From positions 1 to 61,732 of IMG/VR virus record IMGVR_UViG_3300017527_000519: DNA of 61,732 bases, one strand, 5' to 3'. The notes under the pieces are model-generated. The model was given only the letters and a program-made list of their open reading frames with translations. It did not search any database and was not told the DNA's origin. Position numbers and translations under genes: made by a program. The stretch comes from a virus. Below, piece after piece: positions 2,495-3,492 of this stretch (positions within the stretch are counted from its first letter, which is position 1; each line of letters starts with the position of its first letter).

Positions 2495-2835
2495 ATGGCG
2501 CAATCAGAAGCGCCGTTAGCTGGGGCCATACCCCAGGCCGGGGGGAAACTGTGATTGTTACTCCCCGTACCCGTACCCGTACCCGTACCCGTCCCCGTCC
2601 CCGTCCCCGTACCCGTACCCGTACTCGTACCCGTCCCCGTACCCGTTCCCGTACCCGGTCCCGTACCCGTTCCCGTTCCCGTCCCCGTACCCGGTCCCGT
2701 TCCCGTCCCCGTACCCGGTCCCGTTCCAGTTCCCGTACCCGTTCCCGTACCCGTGCCCGTCCCCGTCCCCGTACCCGTACTCGTACCCGTAAGTATTATG
2801 ACTTTCGCCGTCAATTATTCCCATGATTTCCTCAC
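2495..2835. repeat. Repeat unit 1 of a tandem gene duplication with hexanucleotide array
   Basis: First of two tandem copies of a unit of about 345 bp. Each copy has a shared left flank (GGCGC-loop-GCGCC hairpin, then a GGGGCC-type hairpin), an array of about 38 variants of the hexamer CCCGTA (2561-2790), and a shared right flank ending TTTCCTCAC. The right flank carries the start and Shine-Dalgarno of a minus-strand gene. Variation within the hexamer falls mostly at one position, as expected if the array is coding. Confidence 0.85.
2558..2824 (-). CDS. Gly-X dipeptide-repeat protein A (Tyr/Asp/Asn-Gly)
   Basis: An 88-residue low-complexity protein: a short unique N-terminus ([14 protein letters not shown]) followed by about 35 dipeptides of Gly with Tyr, Asp, Asn, His or Thr, ending Gly-Glu-stop. 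It is encoded by the hexanucleotide array. The start at 2824 has GAGGAAATC directly upstream, and the paralogue at 2906-3178 keeps the same start context, N-terminus and final Gly-Glu-stop, which argues that this frame is the real one. A flexible, Tyr-rich acidic chain could form condensates, bind metal ions or interact with RNA polymerase or other host proteins; none of these is shown. Its partner in sequence is the DUF6948-like gene just upstream. Confidence 0.65.
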
Positions 2836-2841
2836 TCGGTG

Positions 2842-3189
2842 ATGGCGCAATCAGAAGCGCCGTTAGCAGGGGCCATTCCCCATGGCCGGTGGGAAACTGT
2901 GATTGTTACTCCCCATTCCCATTCCCATTCCCATTCCCATTCCCATTCCCATCCCCGTCCCCGTCCCCGTCCCCGTACCCGTACCCGTACTCGTTCCAGT
3001 CCCCATTCCCATCCCCGTACCCGTCCCCGTCCCCGTCCCCGTACCCGTCCCCGTGCACGTACCCGTCCCCGTTCCTGTCCCCGTACCTGTCCCCGTCCCC
3101 GTACCCGTTCCCGTGCCCGTACCCGTCCCCGTCCCTGTACCCGTAAGTATTATGACTTTCGCCGTCAATTATTCCCATGATTTCCTCAC
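2842..3189. repeat. Repeat unit 2 of the tandem duplication
   Basis: Second copy of the unit, offset by about 348 bp from the first. The left flank (2842-2910) and right flank (3145-3189) match the first copy almost base for base; the internal array (2911-3144) has the same hexamer framework but a different order of variants and more CCCATT hexamers at its left end. The two arrays have therefore diverged or been rearranged faster than the flanks. Confidence 0.85.
2906..3178 (-). CDS. Gly-X dipeptide-repeat protein B (Asp/Asn/Tyr-Gly)
   Basis: A 90-residue paralogue of the neighbouring repeat protein, with the same [14 protein letters not shown] start and Gly-Glu end. Its dipeptides are richer in Asp-Gly in the middle and in Asn-Gly at the C-terminus. 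The start at 3178 lies inside the last codons of the DUF6948-like gene (ten-base overlap), whose final codons also supply the Shine-Dalgarno GAGGAAATC, so translation is coupled. The same overlap remnant is present before copy A, showing that the duplicated unit included the tail of the upstream gene's signal. Function unknown. Confidence 0.65.
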
Positions 3190-3492
3190 ACAGTCTATCA
3201 TGGAAACCACGGTGAGCATGTTAAATCGGACGGTAGGACAGGGATCTAAAACCGTTTCCGGCAAGGGGCCTTTTTCCGCAAGCTCACCAAGTCCTTTTGT
3301 CGTACCCCATCGACGGATGACAGAGGCATCTTCAAGCTTGCCATGCTCATTACCGTGACCATCAGCTTTGGATGTAAACAACCCCACGAACACCCAACCG
3401 CGTTGCATGATAACGATACGCATATCACCGGTTGTTGAGTCCTTTGCCACGTACCTTACTCCGTCTAATTCTATTTCGTTTGGACAGTTCAT
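3169..3492 (-). CDS. DUF6948-like protein
   Basis: A 107-residue protein. After a short N-terminus it shows the pattern I associate with the DUF6948 family: an Ile-Val strand, aromatic and Gly-rich turn (RGWVFVGLF), a charged loop, then ASVIRRWG and GLGELAEKGPL, with a hydrophobic C-terminal strand ending near an Ile-Asp-Cys. The family name is from memory and the similarity is judged by eye. The start is placed at 3492 because AAGGAGGAAAGC precedes that ATG; the longer frame upstream runs through a GC-rich hairpin. Downstream it overlaps a Gly-X repeat gene, so the three genes look like one functional set. Confidence 0.6.
   Translation of the reverse strand: MNCPNEIELDGVRYVAKDSTTGDMRIVIMQRGWVFVGLFTSKADGHGNEHGKLEDASVIRRWGTTKGLGELAEKGPLPETVLDPCPTVRFNMLTVVSMIDCVRKSWE

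Follow-up and report, generated by a model that had tools for sequence, protein, structure and literature searches.

The systems closest to the phage gene pair described here are Sm-type proteins with low-complexity tails. The acidic, disordered C-terminal domain of E. coli Hfq acts as a nucleic-acid mimic that modulates RNA binding (PMC5606850), the tail of Acinetobacter Hfq contains GGFGGQ repeats (PMC11617691), and the tails of SmD1 and SmD3 consist of RG dipeptide repeats (PMC3195771). The phage pair resembles Hfq in combining a predicted Sm-type core with a disordered, Gly-rich and/or acidic tail in a bacterial setting, but its tail is normally the product of a separate, coupled gene with strict Gly-X alternation, RNA binding of its core is putative, and the core belongs to another sequence family, which does not match Hfq and has WGTTKGLGEL as a conserved insert. 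With SmD1, SmD3, SmB and LSm4 it shares the placing of a Gly-X dipeptide repeat as a tail after the Sm fold, a layout reproduced as such in one fusion protein (L093), whereas X is Tyr, Asp, Asn or Ser rather than Arg, the proteins are phage-encoded and the tail is usually supplied in trans. The Sm-like protein 3BY7, from uncultured marine DNA, is likewise a small Sm-like barrel, with weak in-register sequence similarity through TIP60, and Sm-like cyanophage proteins are among the BFVD matches listed for the fold. We know of no Gly-X partner for either. Pfam PF22253 (DUF6948) belongs to the same superfamily, and several of the loci discussed below score above its cut-off; its annotation gives no function, fold or partner, and the branch of the protein studied here falls outside the model. 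A literature search for DUF6948, phage-encoded Hfq, the string GYGYGDGDG or a pair of this kind, with most subscription papers outside its reach, returned nothing, and the pairing is, as far as could be found, undescribed.

The window, i.e. the whole stretch of DNA that was analysed (61,732 nt), comes from the 61.7 kb IMG/VR virus record IMGVR_UViG_3300017527_000519. Its minus strand carries a 107-aa DUF6948-like gene followed by two tandem Gly-X genes (90 aa, then 88 aa), and the locus adjoins genes for a YqaJ-type exonuclease and ERF recombination. The features are as follows.

3169..3492, minus strand: DUF6948-like gene, 107 aa, ATG start, predicted Sm/LSm fold (open reading frame, AlphaFold2 model, Foldseek and VIA matches, homologues)
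2906..3178, minus strand: first Gly-X gene, 90 aa (open reading frame, composition, same place in nearly all homologous loci)
2558..2824, minus strand: second Gly-X gene, 88 aa, tandem duplicate of the first (open reading frame, composition, duplicated flanks)
3169..3178, minus strand: overlap of the DUF6948-like and first Gly-X genes, 10 bases (sequence)
3184..3187, minus strand: Shine-Dalgarno-like GAGG 5' of the first Gly-X start, within the DUF6948-like gene (sequence)
2830..2833, minus strand: GAGG 5' of the second Gly-X start, copied in the duplication (sequence)
2912..3144, minus strand: hexanucleotide array, copy 1, GGG-NAY units (Tandem Repeats Finder)
2564..2791, minus strand: hexanucleotide array, copy 2, GGG-NAY units (Tandem Repeats Finder)
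2827..2905, minus strand: non-coding 3' flank of copy 1, kept in copy 2 at about 2490-2557 (flank alignment)

The initial annotation had described Gly-X genes of 88 and 90 residues arising from hexanucleotide arrays, the first overlapping a DUF6948-like gene; open reading frames and Tandem Repeats Finder confirm the genes and arrays, and the overlap amounts to 10 bases (ATGGGAATAA). Gly alternates mainly with Tyr, Asp and Asn, and at times with His, the 90-aa protein containing 35 Gly, 17 Asp, 11 Asn and 11 Tyr (net charge, about −17) and the 88-aa protein 37 Gly, 19 Tyr, 9 Asp and 8 Asn (net charge, about −13). By eye, the 3' flank of copy 1 holds two short inverted repeats.

The two Gly-X genes are a tandem duplication of a ~350-bp unit that includes the last part of the preceding gene together with GAGG and ATG. 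In the copy alignment 48 of 50 bases around the start are identical, as are nearly all of the about 67 non-coding bases after the stop. The copies have in common, as the initial annotation had stated and as their sequences bear out, the first 14 residues, the GAGG start signal and the terminal Gly-Glu-stop. Because the non-coding flanks are equally conserved, this agreement is by itself no proof of selection; the evidence for a Gly-X function is weak within the window alone and strong across other loci. Thus, of the earlier argument for a function, the part that relied on both copies keeping the start is weakened by the duplication, whereas selection on these low-complexity proteins is upheld by their co-occurrence with the same gene elsewhere and by the rarity of frame breaks. 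It is the Gly-X gene only that is duplicated in the window, and also in L015, L030, L035 and L052.

The label 'DUF6948-like' for the window protein rests on iterated HMM searches. The PF22253 model itself (cut-off, 27 bits) does not match the 107-aa protein, so that the earlier assignment holds by way of intermediates (L070, L138, L151) and not through Pfam directly. Scores above the cut-off were obtained for L151 (103 bits, E 8.7e-30), L113 (99 bits), L200 (84 bits) and L093 (80 bits), and scores below it for L070 (26.4 bits, E 7.5e-6) and L138 (20.4 bits, E 5.6e-4). The structural model of the window protein and that of the L093 fusion, a true PF22253 member, also share the order of strands and helices and the fold matches. 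Homologues are found in hundreds of phage contigs, the two-gene unit being shared by many phages that are not related to one another, and form three divergent subfamilies, namely the window type, the HRGVFFGYA type and the SAGVFAG type, the last corresponding to true Pfam PF22253. At the DNA level, blastn of the window unit against phage records gave no match, and the copy-specific start region was not found as DNA in viral contigs; the exact N-terminal sequence of the Gly-X proteins is therefore lineage-specific. A PF22253 search of five bacterial genomes gave no match and no signal from a control either, and is therefore uninformative, their copies probably lying outside the Pfam model.

The association of the two genes was determined from loci fetched with the 107-aa protein, profiles built from it and two divergent relatives, no array being used as query. 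A Gly-X ORF was counted when it lay on the same strand at most 700 nt downstream. With the three subfamilies pooled, 169 of 178 loci fetched by the DUF6948-like protein alone have a Gly-X ORF just downstream (54 of 60 distinct, sufficiently long loci for the first profile, in viral and bacterial contigs; 56/57 for the HRGVFFGYA type; 59/61 for the SAGVFAG type), an overwhelmingly positive answer to the search for DUF6948 genes beside Gly-X genes elsewhere that the initial annotation had proposed. As a control, in the pooled set an array was present upstream on the same strand in 11 of 137 cases and on the opposite strand in 0 of 137. The reverse scan, which used the DNA pattern (GGNNAY)12 in viral contigs and was blind to any protein, returned 120 stretches; a DUF6948-like domain accompanies 94 of them, always on the same strand and mostly less than 100 nt away, while the other 26 are mostly cut by a contig end or are pure GD/GN runs in unrelated proteins. 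The domain was called here by iterated HMM at permissive thresholds, which is a reservation on the count, although chance hits would not all lie beside the array and share its strand. Since the pair co-occurs elsewhere, a chance pairing in the window is excluded, and it can be taken as practically certain that the DUF6948-like and Gly-X genes form a functional pair. A few DUF6948-like genes, those of L059, L066, L069 and L081, are devoid of a Gly-X partner. The neighbours at other loci are early DNA-metabolism genes (methyltransferase, RecE/exonuclease, Erf, helicase, primase), surroundings that would suit an early function.

The L069 gene (Desulfosarcina MAG, 6001-6324) encodes one of the closest relatives of the window protein (52% identity), and its 12-kb locus contains no Gly-X array.

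The way in which the two genes are joined is also conserved. The 3' end of the DUF6948 gene and the Gly-X start overlap in 116/173 loci, and the offset between the two reading frames is constant in 152/180 loci, across all three subfamilies. Of the 180 loci, 141 build the Gly-X start codon out of the final DUF6948 Trp codon and have a frame open to the array, N-TGG being read as ATG (100 loci), GTG (31) or TTG (10), and the C-terminal Trp is itself 98% conserved in the family alignment. At the window junction, which reads tcATGGgaaTAA, the ATG (3178-3176) uses the TGG codon of Trp106 (3177-3175), and the stop codon of the DUF6948-like gene (TAA) is at 3171-3169. A Shine-Dalgarno-like motif precedes the Gly-X start in 48% of loci against a background of 12%, values obtained with the best start chosen per locus. 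The nested start and this motif point to translational coupling, as judged from the sequences. The constant relative frame also hinted at a −1 ribosomal frameshift that would make a fusion; a slippery heptamer is present in only 4/180 loci, and overlap with reinitiation is for this reason preferred.

That selection acts on the Gly-X peptide can be held with very high confidence from the comparison of loci. Unlike hexamers encode the same alternation, the dominant Gly codon of a locus being GGC (105 loci), GGA (11), GGG (8, window included) or GGT (3) and the third base of the X codons being mainly C in 104 loci and T in 23. The X residues are Tyr (1609), Asp (1190), Asn (661), Ser (269) and few others; these four fill by far the most X positions, even though Val, Ala, Ile and Leu are within easy reach of one base substitution. 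Indels that break the frame of related arrays, a check suggested by the initial annotation, are rare: of 129 neighbouring runs, just 2 change frame. The arrays sampled from 115 Rheinheimera phage genomes differ in length by multiples of 6 bp and exchange Tyr, Asp and Asn with the frame kept. Composition and alternation are conserved, whereas residue order varies freely, which is what would be expected of a disordered low-complexity protein. The array is constant and the N-termini vary among subfamilies, the leaders in the subfamily of the window having the form [F/G]-[E/D]-x-x-[Q/H]-[S/T]. No Arg-rich character is present, unlike in RGG or RG tails. Matches of the Gly-X proteins to TrAA12, phrog_18306 and a serine-rich protein (Pfam, PHROGs, NCBIfam) were below cut-off or weak and driven by composition, and were rejected as identities. 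An RNA element 3' of the Gly-X gene was also rejected as a general feature: across loci, folding with z under −2 was found in 16% against 8% in the background, only slightly above it, and the flank of the window is not conserved across loci.

Within the VVVDRGWIFAGDVTR subfamily (L097, L106, L117, L149, L164, L168, L182 and relatives) a basic C-terminal tail, e.g. TVSPNRKRRK, is present in many of the Gly-X proteins, and M-x-RPVG opens several of them, in contrast to the leaders found in the subfamily of the window.

Structure prediction makes an Sm/LSm-type fold of the DUF6948-like protein highly probable. The AlphaFold2 model of the window protein, computed with 102 relatives, has a pLDDT of 93.3 and a pTM of 0.79. 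The best 50 Foldseek matches in the PDB are all Sm/LSm or Sm-derived (best E, 3e-3; probability, 1.00), and VIA gave Z values of 8.3 against LSm1-7 (63 residues, 2.2 Å) and 8.2 against 3BY7 (65 residues, 2.0 Å). An independent model of a divergent member, the L093 fusion, yielded the same fold matches (VIA Z, 8.2 and 8.1) with a domain pLDDT above 90; its Gly-X tail has a pLDDT under 50 and is predicted to be disordered. These scores are middling (VIA Z, 7-8; Foldseek E, about 3e-3), and the assignment holds on consistency rather than on any single score, because the two models agree and no other fold class appears in the match lists. The sequence profile aligns, weakly (E 0.7) but in register, with the Sm-like portion of TIP60, and VIA also matches the TIP60 barrel; the stretch V-x-V-G ... 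L-x-N-A-x-V-I-R resembles the Sm1 motif, its register with TIP60 being seen at this E value of 0.7 only. No Sm2 RG(D/N) motif is visible in the family alignment; in the window protein the hairpin sequence (residues 82-91) is LDPCPTVRFN. Conservation is strongest at R60, WGT 62-64, GLG 67-69, G75, T80, LD 82-83 and W106, mostly in a beta3-beta4 insert (W-G-T-T-K-G-L-G-E-L) outside the canonical Sm RNA-binding loops. Pfam scans of the window protein and of the relatives scanned gave no Hfq or LSM match, and a Pfam LSM search of three host genomes gave one sub-cut-off match. By taking these features together, the models indicate an Sm-type fold, with classical Sm RNA binding only putative.

Two single proteins join the components directly. 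In L093 a PF22253 domain (E 1.1e-22) precedes a Gly-X tail in one ORF, and in L280 a Gly-X region precedes a DUF6948-type domain, so that both orders are seen, with the reservation that single metagenomic fusions could be assembly errors; phrog_18306 offers weak hints only of a fusion-like layout.

The reading that best accounts for these data, to which we assign a probability of roughly 0.5, is that of a coupled phage Sm-like protein and an acidic, aromatic low-complexity partner acting in one complex. The first gene, of the DUF6948 superfamily, would encode a small Sm/LSm beta-barrel, and the second an intrinsically disordered, acidic, tyrosine-rich Gly-X protein; most likely the two act as one complex. 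We infer complex formation, assembly of the Sm-like protein, probably into a ring, and binding of nucleic acid, most likely RNA. The Gly-X chains would be the disordered tail of the Sm-like protein, supplied in trans and, in two phages, apparently fused directly to the Sm-like domain, and may adjust how the complex binds and lets go of its ligand, or draw complexes together into assemblies, like the C-terminal region of Hfq and the tails of SmD1 and SmD3. Against this reading stand the middling fold scores, conservation that centres outside the Sm RNA-binding loops, the missing Sm2 motif, Gly-X proteins devoid of Arg-rich character, arrays attached to other domains and the few genes with no partner. 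A physical or direct functional partnership of the two proteins is probable; nucleic-acid binding by the putative ring is about as likely as not, and a role in RNA regulation or host take-over is a tentative proposal. Equally speculative is the broader picture of a two-protein phage machine, in which an Sm-like ring with separate, length-variable Gly-X subunits from an overlapping gene would form nucleoprotein condensates or remodel host RNA regulation early in infection, in phages of many bacterial phyla.

The main rival reverses the roles: the Gly-X protein would be an effector directed at a host factor, a protease or a membrane target, which it binds or clogs, and DUF6948 its dedicated chaperone, antidote or targeting partner, with no nucleic acid involved. 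Such an arrangement fits the near-obligate pairing, the coupling and the duplication of the Gly-X gene alone in the window and the four other loci, as well as the lack of visible canonical Sm RNA-binding motifs in the family; moreover, Sm-like folds also serve as pure protein scaffolds, the auxiliary subunit of NatC being among the fold matches. The constancy of the array among N-termini that differ from one subfamily to another suits a tail, not a specific toxin, and six proteins compared with the PADLOC anti-phage defence models gave no match, which leaves the effector reading rather unlikely.

The other explanations are far less probable than either. A virion or assembly role, with the Gly-X protein as a flexible spacer in the phage particle, would be in keeping with the Gly-rich stretches of other phage proteins, including one near 29.2 kb in the window, and is improbable given neighbours such as RecE/exonuclease, Erf, helicase, primase and methyltransferase genes rather than structural ones. 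About as improbable, or slightly more so, is that the array acts as DNA or mRNA, either as a G-rich quadruplex-like repeat or as the binding site of the Sm-like protein, the peptide being incidental: the Gly codons of the window array are nearly all GGG with quadruplex-like spacing, and an Sm-like neighbour could bind its own mRNA, but other loci use GGC, GGA or GGT with NAC or NAT, so that the hexamers differ while the peptide pattern is the same, the start codon and frame are conserved, and in-frame fusions join the array to protein domains. Codon usage rules out an explanation by quadruplex only. Selfish slippage, i.e. hexanucleotide arrays expanding during replication and open by chance, would explain growth and shrinkage in 6-bp units and the duplication with flanks in the window, and is very improbable indeed, being already contradicted by co-occurrence: the arrays are linked to one gene family in 95% of loci, their X residues are restricted and the start architecture is conserved.

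On the reading of a coupled Sm-like protein and low-complexity partner, a predicted fold, a near-invariable partner and a testable mechanism become available for DUF6948, a Pfam 'unknown' whose members in phages number in the hundreds, and the predicted Sm/LSm fold of the partner allows a more specific hypothesis than phase separation or host-factor binding, the possibilities raised initially. If an Sm ring with detachable tails were confirmed, phages would have their own equivalent of Hfq and of the eukaryotic Sm proteins that bear Gly-Arg tails. The pair would also be a system already split by nature, whose low-complexity tails can be removed, swapped or shortened to test their role.

Simple-looking open repeat genes, skipped or misframed by annotators, can thus be conserved genes: in deposited phage genomes both members of the pair are hypothetical, or the Gly-X gene is missed. 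Deposited gene 25 (MAMAMALA...) of Chlorobiaceae phage CV-1-33 (L371, MT192033.1, 3331-3576) appears to be a Gly-X array read in the wrong frame, since in the neighbouring frame a Gly-X ORF starts within the final DUF6948 Trp codon, and Iodobacter phage phiPLPE (L205, EU876853.1) has an unannotated Gly-X ORF after the DUF6948 gene at about 1185-1410.

Some arrays also run into other domains, so that the Gly-X array may be a tail that is portable and serves more than one purpose. In L158, L172, L184, L266, L271, L275, L278, L281, L285 and L287 it continues into a C-terminal domain with the motif GPL..C...LHAT..P.KW.G.R.WIVAL, for which a weak DUF7666 match was found in L275 only (E 0.0048). Another domain (..LTGSC..GR..F...IDV..), with no match in Pfam or PHROGs, follows the array in L113 (1824-2288, minus strand) and in L372 (Monoglobus plasmid NZ_OY725740.1, 3543-4028, plus strand). 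Elsewhere in the window, a Gly-rich repeat (AGGGGGTGTTGG units) lies at 29192-29270 within a 260-aa ORF, two separate 33-bp tandem repeats of about two copies each are found at 27974-28043 and 30271-30341, and a 24-bp tandem repeat at 5329-5378 encodes repeated KAVTAGGN in a 280-aa ORF.
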